Virus record (IMG/VR): IMGVR_UViG_3300031974_002528
Span: 1-64,000 of that record
DNA: 64,000 nucleotides
Direction: 5' to 3' (one strand)
Origin: a virus
The notes below the pieces were generated by a model, which saw nothing but the letters and a program-made list of their open reading frames with translations, ran no database searches and was not told the origin of the DNA. This document shows, in pieces, positions 22,803-29,722 of this stretch; the stretch's first letter is position 1, and each line of letters begins with the position of its first letter. Position numbers and translations under genes: made by a program.

Positions 22803-23043
22803 AGAAGAGATTGTTGATACTCTTGAGTTTATGACCAAAACCAAATTCGGTAAGTTGGTTGAAGACATAGTAATGTCTAAAAAGATGCCTTACATTGATG
22901 CGGTCATCTATGCTTGTGAAGAGAATGGAATCGAAATAGAAGATTCTCGAAAGTATGTTTCCGTCTCGTTGAAACAGAAAATTGAATCTGAGGCGATGGA
23001 TTTAAACTTCTTGGAAAAAAATGGACAACTACCCATTGACTGA
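22792..23043 (+). CDS. 33: Late-transcription coactivator gp33 homologue
   Basis: 83 residues (ATG at 22792 or 22795, after GGAGGA). The pattern EFMTKTKFGKLVEDIVMSKKMPYIDAVIYACEENGIEIED followed by ISESEAMDLNFLEK-like helices matches gp33 proteins of marine T4-like phages. In T4, gp33 binds the RNA polymerase beta flap and links the late sigma factor gp55 at TATAAATA promoters to the sliding clamp. The late boxes in this window make this role coherent. gp55 itself is not in the window. It overlaps the following oxygenase gene by 23 bases. Confidence 0.72.
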   Translation: MMTEEEIVDTLEFMTKTKFGKLVEDIVMSKKMPYIDAVIYACEENGIEIEDSRKYVSVSLKQKIESEAMDLNFLEKNGQLPID

Positions 23044-23617
23044 TCCCTTTGTACGGGATTTCATTTTTGACGAAGAACAAAAAGAGTTTCTCTTAGAGAA
23101 GTGGCAGGCAGATGAATCCCAAGTCTTCAGGGCAAAGGTCTATAATGAAAAAGATGGGGAATCTACAAGTCACAATAGAAGTTGCTATCACCTGCCTATA
23201 GACTACAAAAGATTGTTTGATGTTAGTCTTACCATTGATGAGATGTTTAGAGAATGGTATCCCGAAGCATCGGAAGATCTTTGGTGGGCGCAGTTTGAGT
23301 GGGTGAGATATTTTCCTGGGCAACAATTTAAAAAGCACCGCGACGATAATCCCGAAGGTTCGGCGCATAATAGGTACTTTACCTGCGTCACCATGATAGA
23401 AAAATCTGATGACCTTGAAGGCGGGAAACTGAAAGTTTGGTTGCCAACTACAGATATTGAAATCGAAGTTGATCTAGAACCATTCGAAACTATAATGTTC
23501 CCTGCTTGGTTTCAACACGAAGCAACCGAAGTCAAGAAAGGTAAAAGGGTCATCCTGATTAGTTGGGCAGGTAAGAAGGGAGTTAGATCCTTAATGAACT
23601 TCCCAAAAAGTGCTTGA
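23021..23617 (+). CDS. 2OG-Fe(II) oxygenase
   Basis: A 198-residue double-stranded beta-helix enzyme. The HxD motif is in FKKHRDDNPEG, the distal His in FPAWFQHEATEV, and the 2OG-binding basic residues in KGKRVILISW. RYFTCVTMIEKSDDLEGGKLKVW is the usual strand after HxD. This resembles 2OG oxygenases (PKHD/P4H type) common in marine T4-like phages; the substrate is unknown. It overlaps gp33 by 23 bases, and its stop codon lies within the -35 box of the gp32 promoter. Confidence 0.82.
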   Translation: MDNYPLTDPFVRDFIFDEEQKEFLLEKWQADESQVFRAKVYNEKDGESTSHNRSCYHLPIDYKRLFDVSLTIDEMFREWYPEASEDLWWAQFEWVRYFPGQQFKKHRDDNPEGSAHNRYFTCVTMIEKSDDLEGGKLKVWLPTTDIEIEVDLEPFETIMFPAWFQHEATEVKKGKRVILISWAGKKGVRSLMNFPKSA

Positions 23618-26129: not shown

Positions 26130-26849
26130 ATGGCATTACCACGCGTTAATGAGACGCTGAATTTTACTATGGAGATTCCCTCCACAGGGCGTCGAGTTAA
26201 ATACAGACCCTACCTCGTCAAAGAAGAAAAAATCTTACTTCAGGCATTTGAGTCTCAAGATCCACAGACTTGCCTTGAAGCAATGACCGATACGATTGTT
26301 TCTTGCCTAGACCCGTCAGAAAATGTTGATATGAACAAACTCGCTACATTTGATATCGAGTACATGTTCACGCAACTTAGATCAAAGTCAGTAGGCGAAA
26401 CCTCAACAATCATCATGACCTGTAAAGAAGAAAAATGCAAGATGAGAAACGAGTATGTCATCAATCTCGAACAATTGCATATTGACGTTCCCAAAGGCAA
26501 TAATATCATACCTATCACTGATCATATTTCAGTAGAAATGCAATATCCTTCTTATGGGTCTCTCATGGAAGGTGATGTCCAAAATGCTGAAAAGGACGTC
26601 AACGCTGCCTTAGAAGTTATCGCCAGATCTATTGCTGCTGTTATTACCGAAGAAGAAAGGATTGATTGTGAATCGCAAGAAATGTCTGAGATCGTAGAGT
26701 TTATACAATCTATGACAGCGAGTCAGTTGGAAAAAATTACTGAATTCTTACAGAATGTTCCAGCACTTACTCACCTTGCCCAGTTTAATTGTATTAAGTG
26801 CGGCGCAGAGAACGAACTAGAACTAAAAGGGTTGACTGATTTTTTCTGA
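26130..26849 (+). CDS. 26: gp26-like baseplate hub / tail assembly chaperone, zero-frame product
   Basis: 239 residues from ATG 26130, chosen because TTGGAG at 26118-26123 is a well-spaced ribosome site; the upstream TTG is part of it. The T4_baseplate (gp26) pattern is clear: KYRPYLVKEEKILLQAFE at the N-terminus, IEYMFTQLRSKSVGE, and a C-terminal zinc-knuckle-like FNCIKCGAEN plus a second pair CKEEKCK. T4 gp26 is a baseplate hub protein. Position directly before the tape measure also matches tail assembly chaperones. It ends GAT TTT TTC TGA, a slippery site immediately before the stop. Confidence 0.8.
   Translation: MALPRVNETLNFTMEIPSTGRRVKYRPYLVKEEKILLQAFESQDPQTCLEAMTDTIVSCLDPSENVDMNKLATFDIEYMFTQLRSKSVGETSTIIMTCKEEKCKMRNEYVINLEQLHIDVPKGNNIIPITDHISVEMQYPSYGSLMEGDVQNAEKDVNAALEVIARSIAAVITEEERIDCESQEMSEIVEFIQSMTASQLEKITEFLQNVPALTHLAQFNCIKCGAENELELKGLTDFF
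26840..26846 (+). promoter_or_regulatory. Programmed -1 frameshift site (T TTT TTC)
   Basis: The heptamer T TTT TTC lies in the correct register (X XXY YYZ) relative to the gp26 frame, and the UGA stop follows directly. The -1 frame has no stop until 27040. The canonical form and the conserved-looking extension support programmed frameshifting as in lambda G/GT. Confidence 0.72.
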
Positions 26850-27040
26850 TTACCCTCTCTCATGACAGTCTTATAAACCATTATAAGACCAACTTCGCTC
26901 TGATGCAACATCATAATTATTCGCTAACTGAACTAGAGCATATGTTACCTTGGGAGAGGGAGATCTACATAACCCTCCTCACTGAGTACATCAAAGAACA
27001 AAACGAAAAAGCAGAGCAGAGAAAACTCGCGAGGATGTGA
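26846..27040 (+). CDS. gp26 C-terminal extension made by -1 frameshift
   Basis: 64 codons in the -1 frame, with no ATG until about codon 20. Only weak CTG/ATT codons lie near its beginning, so frameshift rather than independent initiation is the likely route, giving a fusion of about 303 residues. The sequence has TNFALMQHHNYSLTELEHMLPWEREIYITLL (quoted in parts: TNFALMQHHNYSL, TELEHMLPWEREIY) and a charged tail EQNEKAEQRK. I recognise this as the small ORF after gp26 in marine T4-like phages. It probably forms the T-like domain that recruits tail-tube subunits to the tape measure. Confidence 0.68.
   Translation: MITLSHDSLINHYKTNFALMQHHNYSLTELEHMLPWEREIYITLLTEYIKEQNEKAEQRKLARM
26868..26889 (+). 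other. Hairpin downstream of the frameshift site
   Basis: GTCTTATAA (26868-26876), loop ACCA, TTATAAGAC (26881-26889): perfect 9-bp stem inside the extension ORF, 21 bases after the slippery site. This is further than the usual 5-9 bases for a frameshift stimulator, so its role is uncertain. Confidence 0.5.
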
Positions 27041-27077: not shown

Positions 27078-29222
27078 ATGGCATCTTTAGAGTCAGTCGT
27101 AGCAGAACTAAAAGAACTGAACACTTTTTCAGAACTTACTTTAGAATCTAATTTTGAGATCAACGATAATCTGAGTCAGTTGTCAGAGGTATTACTCACG
27201 TTCATGAACACCGTTCCCGCTGCGTTGACGCAAGGATTTGCTGACCTAATCAATGCTGATAAGAGTATCTACGAAAAAGAGAAAAAAGATGCTGACACTC
27301 GCGAAAAACTAAAAGGTCGCGATGAGAAAGATGGTGGTGACGGTGACGACAAACCATCAAGAACTGAAAAATTAAAAACAGAATTTAAATCTGGTTTCTT
27401 GAAAGGTCAAGAAGAAGATCTATTCGGAGGCATCTTTTCCGCAATAGAGGACTTCACTAACACAGCAGGTATGTGGGCAGGTAAGACTGTTAAAGTTCTT
27501 GGTTTGCTAAAAACTGGTATGCTGTCTTTGGGTAGTATGTTATTCTCTGGGATAAGTGCTGTTGCTGGATTCGTGATGACAACAGTGGTCCCTGCTATCA
27601 CTGCTATGTTTAGTGCTCTCATGGCCATGCTGGCGCCAATAGTTGCTGCTCTTGCTCCTATCCTCCTGCCTATACTTGCCATTGCTGCTGCGATCGGAGT
27701 AGCATTCCTAGCAATTAAAAAGTTCTTCCCAGAATTCTCTTTCTCAGAAGCACTTGATGGTATGAAAAATGCTCTTTCAGAGTTTTGGGATGGTTTAACA
27801 GAATGGGCATCGAACGCGATAAAATATCTTAATCCGTTAAATTGGTTCGGCGGTGATGATGACGAGGAACCAGAAGCACCTCCTGATGCCAAACGTGGTG
27901 GTCCTGAAGACCTAGAAAGTGACGTTCCTGAAAGAAGCGACAACCCTGACATTGCCGATGAAGGAGTGACAAAAGAACAAGTAGAGAAATTTACCGACCT
28001 TGGTTTCACTCCGCGTCAAGCAATTGCGATGGCAAATGAGGAATCTAGAGCAGAGCAAGATGCTCAAACTCAAAAGGTTCCTGGCAAGCGTGGTCGCGTA
28101 ATTGGTAGCGCACCTGCTGCTCCAACTAAAGTTAATCCAGAAACTGGCAAGAGGGGATTGGTTATTGGCGATGGACCTGCTCCTAGAGCAACGGGTGAAA
28201 TGCCAACTGAAGAAGGAGGTGCGTTCGAGTTCGGTACGATGAATGCGTTTGATCCGTTAATTGACGAGATCGCGTCAATAAACAGTTGGTGGATGGACCC
28301 GATGATAGAAGGTCTCCGCTCTCTAAAAGATTGGTTTGCTGGACTGTTTAACTTTTCTGGTATACAACAAACTTTAACGAATATGTTCGCCGAGATAGGT
28401 ATTCCTCGTGTAGAGTTTGATGTTCCGTTTATCGGTCCAGTTGGGTTTGGTCCGTTCTATCCTTTCCGTCCTGACGAAGGCACTACCCAGCTTGCAGGTA
28501 AAACTTCGGTGACTACTGAATCTTCTGGAGATGACTATCAGAAAACATTTGCGGATAATGCTTCTGGTATTGAGGACGATAGCATATTCTCATATGCAAA
28601 AGAGAGCGTGGACCAACAAGTTGTAAACGAACTTGGACAAACAGAAAATATTACCACTCAAACAGGAGTTACCGCCTCATTCGATGACATGACAGGTAAG
28701 GGTAAGGTGCGTTTCGATACCTATAAATCGATTGATAACCTTGCCACTGACGAGTTCAAGGAACTAGAGGACTCCCTTGAAGAGTTTGAGGTTGGTCCTA
28801 TCGTAATGGGTAAGGTTCGCCGTATGATTGATGCAGGTGCCACTCCAACTCAAGTGAAAGACTTCCTCAGGGAAAACGAAAAAAGTATCGCAGAAAAAAT
28901 CAATAACTTCTTTGCGCCAGCAACAGACGAGTTAAAAGAAGATGCTACAAATCTGCTCGGCAAGGTAAAAGGTTTCTTTGGATTCGGCGATGATGTTGGT
29001 GGCGGTGAGGCAATCGCTCGCGACAATGTTTTAAGTATGGAAACCGAAAAGGCAGCAAGAGCAAAAGAAGATGCGGCGCAAGCAGCAGCAACCCTTGTTA
29101 ATGCTCCAAGTAACACAAGTAACAGTGTCACCAACAATAATATTAATGCTGGTCCAATGCCTTCTCCAACTGATAAGAGCGATAGAACTCATCGTGGAGC
29201 ATATAGAGGAAGGAGAATCTAA
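27078..29222 (+). CDS. 29: Tape measure / tail-length protein (gp29-like)
   Basis: 714 residues, determining tail tube length and part of the baseplate hub. The N-terminus is coiled coil (VAELKELNTFSELTLESNFEI split) followed by an acidic-basic linker. A long hydrophobic stretch around residues 145-215 has many Ala, Leu and Met (AVAGFVMTTVVPAITAM, MLAPIVAALAPILLPIL), typical of tape measures that insert into the host inner membrane. Low-complexity linkers and a C-terminal helical part end in Asn-rich then basic residues. T4 gp29 is 590 residues, so a longer tail or extra domains is likely. Its stop overlaps that of the convergent gp4 gene. Confidence 0.85.
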   Translation: MASLESVVAELKELNTFSELTLESNFEINDNLSQLSEVLLTFMNTVPAALTQGFADLINADKSIYEKEKKDADTREKLKGRDEKDGGDGDDKPSRTEKLKTEFKSGFLKGQEEDLFGGIFSAIEDFTNTAGMWAGKTVKVLGLLKTGMLSLGSMLFSGISAVAGFVMTTVVPAITAMFSALMAMLAPIVAALAPILLPILAIAAAIGVAFLAIKKFFPEFSFSEALDGMKNALSEFWDGLTEWASNAIKYLNPLNWFGGDDDEEPEAPPDAKRGGPEDLESDVPERSDNPDIADEGVTKEQVEKFTDLGFTPRQAIAMANEESRAEQDAQTQKVPGKRGRVIGSAPAAPTKVNPETGKRGLVIGDGPAPRATGEMPTEEGGAFEFGTMNAFDPLIDEIASINSWWMDPMIEGLRSLKDWFAGLFNFSGIQQTLTNMFAEIGIPRVEFDVPFIGPVGFGPFYPFRPDEGTTQLAGKTSVTTESSGDDYQKTFADNASGIEDDSIFSYAKESVDQQVVNELGQTENITTQTGVTASFDDMTGKGKVRFDTYKSIDNLATDEFKELEDSLEEFEVGPIVMGKVRRMIDAGATPTQVKDFLRENEKSIAEKINNFFAPATDELKEDATNLLGKVKGFFGFGDDVGGGEAIARDNVLSMETEKAARAKEDAAQAAATLVNAPSNTSNSVTNNNINAGPMPSPTDKSDRTHRGAYRGRRI

Positions 29223-29722
29223 TTCTTCTTTTTCTTAAATGGAGCGAGAGGTTTTAGTTTCTTTAGTTTGCCAGGAGTTTTGTTGAGTATCTTCATTTTG
29301 GTCAACTCATCTTCAGTCCATATCGCAAACTTGTAACCATTATCCAAAGCGATCTGTTGCGCTGCCTCCCACTTGTTACGATTTTTGATGTAGGTGAATG
29401 CTTCGTTGAGAGAGCGTTTGGAGCGAGGATTCTTTGACTTCGGCGGTTGAGTTTGCTTTTTTGGTTTCACTTCTACAAGTAATACGTTCCCACTCTTAAA
29501 CTTAATCCAGAAGTCCATGTGGTATTTATGCCACTTCTTGTCCACATCGTAATAGTATGGGATGATAAAATCTTCGCTGTTCCACTGCGCAACTTCTGAG
29601 TTGTTGTCCAACCACTGCATAACAGATTTTTCCCAATGAGATCTGTACACGACCTCCTCGGGGTTGCCCTTATACTTGCTACGATGTTTTACAGTGTATT
29701 TGCCTTTATAAGTTCTTGGCAT
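29219..29722 (-). CDS. 4: Head completion protein gp4/gp50 homologue, minus strand
   Basis: 167 residues. VYRSHWEKSVMQWLDNNSEV, WNSEDFIIPYYYDVDKKWHKYHMDFWIKF and VLLVEVKPKKQTQPP are the hallmarks of T4 gp4, which seals packaged heads before tail attachment. The D...ExK pattern (DFWIKF, VEVKPKK) is that of a PD-(D/E)XK nuclease-like fold. The C-terminus is very basic. The gene is transcribed against its neighbours, its stop overlaps the tape-measure stop (CTAA), and GCTAAATA lies 31 bases upstream of its start on the minus strand. Confidence 0.85.
   Translation of the reverse strand: MPRTYKGKYTVKHRSKYKGNPEEVVYRSHWEKSVMQWLDNNSEVAQWNSEDFIIPYYYDVDKKWHKYHMDFWIKFKSGNVLLVEVKPKKQTQPPKSKNPRSKRSLNEAFTYIKNRNKWEAAQQIALDNGYKFAIWTEDELTKMKILNKTPGKLKKLKPLAPFKKKKN

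Follow-up and report, generated by a model that had tools for sequence, protein, structure and literature searches.

Probable expression of gp26 and gp51 of a T4-like phage as two tail assembly chaperone forms by –1 frameshifting

Genes gp26 and gp51 of the T4-like phage analysed here are, judging from the sequence, very probably a single gene that is read in two ways by –1 frameshifting and yields two forms of a tail assembly chaperone. The analysed DNA comprises positions 1–64,000 of the IMG/VR virus record IMGVR_UViG_3300031974_002528, and this whole stretch is referred to below as the window. Most ribosomes would stop at TGA 26847, giving a short chaperone (TAC-N) of 239 aa. A minority would slip back one base on T_TTT_TTC and continue to a long form (TAC-NC) of 303 aa, which ends in the three-helix gp51 domain. 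A Shine-Dalgarno-like stretch upstream of the site would favour this slip, and a hairpin downstream of it would probably do so too. If the two forms work like lambda gpG/gpGT, the short one would bind the tape measure protein, to which the less abundant long one would recruit the tail tube subunit. Slippage itself, its frequency and these binding partners are what we infer from the features described below.

The gp26–gp51 locus and its conservation

The gp26 frame (26130..26849, plus strand) runs from ATG 26130 to TGA 26849 and encodes 239 aa followed by the stop codon. It matches Pfam T4_baseplate (6.2e-52) and phrog_150 (9.3e-52), and its structural model has a pLDDT of 91.3. The 3' end of the frame reads GAT TTT TTC TGA (26838–26849), so that the slippery heptamer T_TTT_TTC (26840..26846, plus strand) lies in the phase required for a –1 slip. 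The gp26 stop codon TGA (26847..26849, plus strand) adjoins it, in the very register that the original prediction had described. The –1 frame extension (26846..27040, plus strand) consists of 64 codons and a stop codon, TGA 27038–27040. Added to the 239 aa of gp26, these 64 codons give a predicted fusion of 303 aa, the approximate size proposed earlier. The extension was also said to lack a usable start codon, and this holds: its first ATG is codon 20 (26903), located inside the conserved domain, no ATG occurs in the first 19 codons, and neither GTG nor TTG occurs anywhere in the extension. Heptamers of the type XXXYYYZ were found in phase within the last 10 codons of 3 of the 90 window ORFs of at least 100 aa. 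Besides gp26, these are the ORF at 23021–23617, with an extension of 12 codons, and a minus-strand ORF antisense to ORF 61–948, with an extension of 62 codons.

The –1 frame of the window matches phrog_634, "baseplate hub assembly catalyst", which is gp51 (9.5e-26), and also positions 235–281 of phrog_150 (2.1e-06). Since both the gp26 frame and the –1 frame match phrog_150, this profile covers both parts. The gp51 domain was modelled as three helices (pLDDT 89.4). When this model was compared with 5 chains of known structure, the matches were weak, to helical DNA-binding proteins, with a best Z of 3.3; the list of 8 Pfam families for the domain contains no chaperone family. Differences at codon positions 1/2/3 of the –1 frame amounted to 417/173/852 in the window clade (36 pairs) and to 38692/17908/66311 in cyanophages (3077 pairs). 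By this measure the –1 ORF is coding and under purifying selection, with changes concentrated at third positions. The codon-position pattern and the gp51 match agree with the earlier suggestion that the small –1 product is a real conserved domain. In the annotation of the cyanophage records examined, this domain appears as a separate short gene.

A protein search with gp26 revealed relatives in 645 phage records at E 1e-5. Eighteen of these named records were examined besides T4. Phased T_TTT_TTN was present in 13 of them, namely in members of the Kyanoviridae, Eurybiavirus, Straboviridae (Aeh1, ValKK3, and P19), Pootjesviridae, and Menderavirus as well as unclassified phages. The five records without a phased heptamer belong to the Ackermannviridae (four) and the Kleczkowskaviridae (one). 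A larger set of 183 loci was made up of named phage records, 11 of the 18 among them, and IMG/VR contigs with the gp26 stop in view. Locus L018 was dropped, its gp26 stop being outside the view, and T4 (L019) stands outside the 183. T_TTT_TTN occurs within 15 nt of the gp26 stop in 180 of the 183 loci and at –33 in L178; it is absent from L026 and L027. The total of 181/183 phased heptamers and the count of 131/131 given below are not numbers of independent events, the loci being related to one another. The set includes the window's own contig (L003) and the duplicates L016/L110, L061/L179, and L030/L181, which a collapse at 80% protein identity was meant to remove. After this collapse the heptamer was found in 131 of 133 representatives, L178 counted, and the –1 extension measured 56–69 codons in all 127 complete representatives. 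The alignment of homologous loci proposed with the original prediction thus came out in favour of a conserved heptamer, phase and –1 ORF.

Codon choice at the site was analysed in the 131 heptamer-bearing representatives. The codon 5' of the two Phe codons ends in T in 131/131, where codon use of the same genes predicts 55.6. The residue that it encodes varies: S 64, D 47, A 10, N 8, G 1, and R 1. The first Phe codon is TTT in 131/131, as compared with 935 TTT versus 350 TTC elsewhere in these genes. In the codon-position analysis sites were picked by protein, and all 180 loci with a gp26 end near Phe-Phe or Phe-Leu (180/180) use T TTT TT.

The family also has an edge at which the heptamer is missing. 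In four Ackermannviridae loci (L026, L185, L186, and L187) the gp51-like –1 ORF is kept (4/4), and the T-run heptamer is replaced by ATTTTCAT (4/4). An ATG overlaps the gp26 stop (TAATG) in L185 and L187; no ATG is located there in L026 and L186. A homologue with its own start for the small ORF and no slippery site had been named at the outset as evidence against frameshifting. Such an arrangement does exist at this edge, in L185 and L187. The Kleczkowskaviridae record, Rhizobium phage RHph_TM2_3B (L027), encodes a gp26 relative with neither the heptamer nor the –1 ORF, the –1 frame closing at once. In this phage a +1 ORF (annotated MSLKS...) follows gp26 and is not clearly gp51-like.

RNA elements around the slippery site

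Across the representatives, a Shine-Dalgarno-like stretch ends 7–11 nt 5' of the heptamer. Pairing with the anti-SD sequence at –5 kcal/mol or lower was calculated for 54% of representatives versus 24% of synonymous shuffles at offset –9, and for 30% versus 5% at offset –11. Upstream stimulators of this type are known from some frameshift sites in bacteria. In the window, the candidate upstream stimulator is AAAAGGG (26825..26831, plus strand), 8 nt 5' of the heptamer. It is moderate, with a best 8-mer of –4.5 kcal/mol, that is, weaker than the –5 cut-off of the family test.

Downstream of the site, the mean folding energy over 18 codons from the start of the extension is –9.2 kcal/mol versus –5.1 kcal/mol in synonymous shuffles (12–15 shuffles per sequence in the folding controls). 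The mean z is –2.05, and 58% of 129 representatives lie below –1.5; the values for two later stretches are –0.28 and –0.72. Dinucleotide shuffles agree with this excess of folding. Both the Shine-Dalgarno-like stretch and the downstream folding exceed the synonymous-codon controls, which is evidence of selection on RNA signals.

Two recurrent helices were recognized. The figures quoted for them are based on rows taken from searches, instead of the helix classes A and B, which were chosen for pairing. P-SSM2-like cyanophages possess an 11-bp stem located 5 nt 3' of the heptamer. In 76 rows (80 cyanophage loci, 75 of them distinct and usable, plus P-SSM2), 77.3% of cells are paired, versus 27–48% when the stem is slid. 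Its covariation is 0.171, compared with 0.128 in shuffles (0/500) and 0.028–0.093 in slid positions. The paired percentage and the covariation score are thus distinct from their controls. Changes on both sides of the stem separate less well: 5 pairs versus 4–5 when slid, 28 cells versus 26 at slide –2, and 39/500 shuffles reaching the observed count of both-sided changed pairs. The window clade has a 9-bp stem 21 nt 3' of the heptamer, which corresponds to the hairpin at 26868..26889 (plus strand) of the window. It is paired at 91.4% over 9 rows (the 9 distinct sequences among the window and 15 relatives from searches), versus 32–49% when slid, and its covariation comprises two pairs with one compensatory cell each. 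Neither recurrent helix fits well to 73/129 representatives.

Classic downstream stimulators are located approximately 5–9 nt past the heptamer. The 9-bp hairpin of the window is a candidate stimulator whose role is uncertain because its distance of 21 nt places it beyond these. If it does stimulate slippage from this distance, it would act otherwise than by the classic block at mRNA entry, for example by slowing termination at the adjoining TGA. We also considered pairing of the Shine-Dalgarno-like AGGG with a downstream CCCT around the heptamer and rejected it; CCCT is kept in just 5 of the 9 distinct window-clade rows. A search of the open-licence literature listed no paper that deals, by its title or abstract, with stimulators in gp26/gp51 genes. 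As a tentative and rather doubtful scheme, one heptamer would have been kept and the RNA element that tunes it swapped between lineages: the 11-bp stem at 5 nt in P-SSM2-like phages, the 9-bp stem at 21 nt in the window clade and some others, and other folds elsewhere. Under the same scheme, ATG-bearing phages may make three products, namely gp26, the fusion, and free gp51.

Chaperone assignment and alternative explanations

The gene order in the window is tail tube, gp26–gp51, and tape measure. The tape measure gene, the presumed client of the chaperone, occupies 27078..29222 on the plus strand and was recognized by the profiles phrog_58 (4e-09), phrog_305 (2.9e-07), and phrog_28 (3.3e-07), each of which bears the name "tail length tape measure protein"; a Pfam match was not found for it. 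The predicted position of gp26–gp51 directly upstream of the tape measure is therefore correct. The minus strand carries a head closure gene (phrog_218, 4.2e-53) at 29219–29722, with the tape measure gene on one side and the tail tube cap gene on the other.

Residues 1–98 of the gp26 model resemble Rbstp2171 (3FGX; Z 8.9, 88 aligned, rmsd 3.5) and HK97 gp13 (2OB9; Z 7.2, 87 aligned, rmsd 3.5). These were the top two of 942 chains compared, the next one having Z 4.6, and values of 7–9 are moderate on the scale of the comparison tool itself. Foldseek alone gave E 1.2 and 2.2 for the chaperone folds and ranked them below unrelated chains. Given these non-significant values and the unrelated chains on top, the support from the fold is good but moderate. 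One source describes both structures in its text as tail assembly chaperones of phages, although its table leaves 3FGX uncharacterized (PMC9603447).

The third structural match of the gp26 model, over residues 9–92, is 5IR0 (Z 4.6, rmsd 3.2, 77 aligned), which is ORF19 of a Vibrio cholerae PICI-like element. The match is weak; if its fold is chaperone-like, this satellite protein might imitate the phage chaperone. Weak zinc-ribbon matches to PF01096 were obtained for 17/46 gp26 relatives (best 1.2e-4 among the matches listed). No chaperone family appeared among the 25 of 108 Pfam families listed for gp26, and a sequence search to E 1 with the gp26 profile or T4 gp51 matched no PDB chain. The assignment of the gp26 family to tail assembly chaperones, as put forward in the original prediction, is consistent with the tape measure neighbour and with the predicted fold.

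The assignment has to be weighed against a structural role, in which the frameshift is real and gp26 and the fusion are parts of the hub or baseplate, not chaperones of the tape measure protein. The names given by Pfam and PHROGs ("T4 bacteriophage base plate protein", "baseplate hub") point in this direction, as do the genetic data, cited in a 2010 review, which place gp26 in the hub (PMC3004832). The same review counts both gp26 and gp51 among the hub assembly chaperones and states that the particle contains no gp51 (PMC3004832). This also corrects the earlier statement that T4 gp26 is described only as a hub protein; chaperone genes of T4-like phages have, moreover, been named by Vladimirov et al. 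(2022). The fold likeness to two solved chaperones and the adjoining tape measure gene argue against structural parts, and the lack of PDB matches in the search mentioned above is consistent with this but no proof. We regard a structural role as unlikely.

A programmed –1 frameshift is the best reading of the locus, as suggested by the phased heptamer in 181/183 loci, the purifying selection on the –1 ORF, and the RNA features that go beyond synonymous controls. The annotation of gp51 as a separate gene assumes another route, namely that ribosomes stop at the gp26 TGA and restart at a nearby start codon to make free gp51. Separate gp51 ORFs are annotated in P-HM1, P-SSM2, Ps15, AF3, and ValKK3. 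An ATG lies within four codons after the heptamer, and together with it, in 45 of 127 representatives, often overlapping the stop or just past it; 5 more have one within nine codons and 77 have none in nine. The gp51 starts chosen in annotations are of this kind or lie farther downstream. The TAATG of the heptamer-free Ackermannviridae loci L185 and L187 would also suit a restart. However, nine codons from the start of the extension are free of ATG, GTG, and TTG in 48/127 representatives, and 19 are so in the window; moreover, the gp51 starts annotated in C48C1 and phage OC lie inside the conserved domain. The phased heptamer, the invariant third-position T, and the Shine-Dalgarno-like stretch 7–11 nt upstream have no role in a restart. 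No start codon precedes the gp51 domain in the window, and restart cannot serve as the general route. It is a very unlikely explanation of the locus and may be an extra source of free gp51 in some phages.

Slippage could in principle occur during transcription, with RNA polymerase adding one U in the T run and the mRNA then encoding the fusion in a single frame. The run is six T long in the window and reaches eight T in some relatives, C48C1 for instance; for slippage by the polymerase, a stretch of six T ending at a C is short. Such slippage needs no fixed phase, yet the phase is kept throughout the 181 heptamer-bearing loci, and the Shine-Dalgarno-like element and downstream folding act on ribosomes. 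We consider it extremely unlikely. A sequencing error in a single genome, or a broken gene, would presumably look similar, with one frame closed by a stop and a conserved domain continuing in a different frame. Here, however, the same layout recurs in nearly all loci, isolates and metagenome contigs alike, with codon-position selection in the –1 frame. The conservation of the arrangement already refutes this explanation, the probability of which is negligible.

Comparison with known tail assembly chaperones

Frameshifted chaperone genes in T4-like phages are not new, and tail assembly chaperone genes have been identified in these phages by Vladimirov et al. (2022). Since the principle was published in 2022, the gain from this analysis lies in confirmation, breadth, and the RNA signals. 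It extends the known cases by a further lineage, provides evidence that RNA signals are under selection, proposes how these phages may adjust the proportion of the two chaperone forms, and offers an explanation of gp51 genes that look truncated or missing. In cyanophages, gp51 was reported to be short, by approximately 200 residues, and none was reported for Aeh1 (Sullivan et al., 2010; PMC3037559). Both descriptions follow if gp51 forms the C-terminal part of a frameshift product instead of being a truncated gene. In Aeromonas phage Aeh1 (L024), TTTTTTC is directly followed, in the –1 frame, by the gp51 domain, which is missing from the annotation. When such genomes are annotated, gp26 and gp51 should be joined.

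T4 appears to have arrived at a different solution to the same need. Its gp26 (208 aa) matches positions 14–235 of phrog_150, and its gp51 (249 aa) matches positions 13–280 of the 282 in this profile. Each of them also matches Pfam T4_baseplate over the whole length of the family model, and the two share 20% identity over 161 columns (E 2e-6, single comparison). Because T4 gp51 covers both parts of phrog_150 and gp26 the first part, genes 26 and 51 of T4 seem to encode the short and the long form, respectively. T4 gp26 would thus correspond to the short form and T4 gp51 to the short form plus the C-terminal domain, like the fusion predicted for the window. The difference is that T4 has two separate genes on opposite strands, and no frameshift is needed. 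Frameshifting reportedly appears conserved in several T4-like groups, with T4 said to use genes 26 and 51. The PRFect paper, citing Vladimirov et al. (2022), notes that some T4-like phages dispense with frameshifting and have one gene for the short form and another, fused one for the long form (PMC10885494), and a 2016 review still treats T4 as an exception (PMC5009743).

A functional parallel is lambda gpG/gpGT, where ribosomes likewise shift to the –1 frame at a low rate close to the 3' end of the short-form gene, with the tape measure gene immediately downstream; according to the same 2016 review, neither gpG nor gpGT is part of the virion (PMC5009743). No sequence relation to the lambda proteins was seen, and details of the fold differ. 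Unlike the lambda protein, gp26 has an added zinc-ribbon-like region, recognized by weak matches, and its T-run heptamer lies beside the stop. Compared with HK97 gp13 (2OB9) and Rbstp2171 (3FGX), gp26 is more than twice as long and shares 11–12% identity. The paper on phage Adele describes, for the Vandenendeviridae and Andersonviridae, a conserved poly-T –1 site where the short form ends, ahead of the tape measure gene; it also refers to Vladimirov et al. (2022) for slippery poly-T sequences that T4-like phages have in their short-form genes (PMC12846349). The Adele locus belongs to other phage families and uses the motif GTTTTT (PMC12846349), in place of the T_TTT_TTC of the window.
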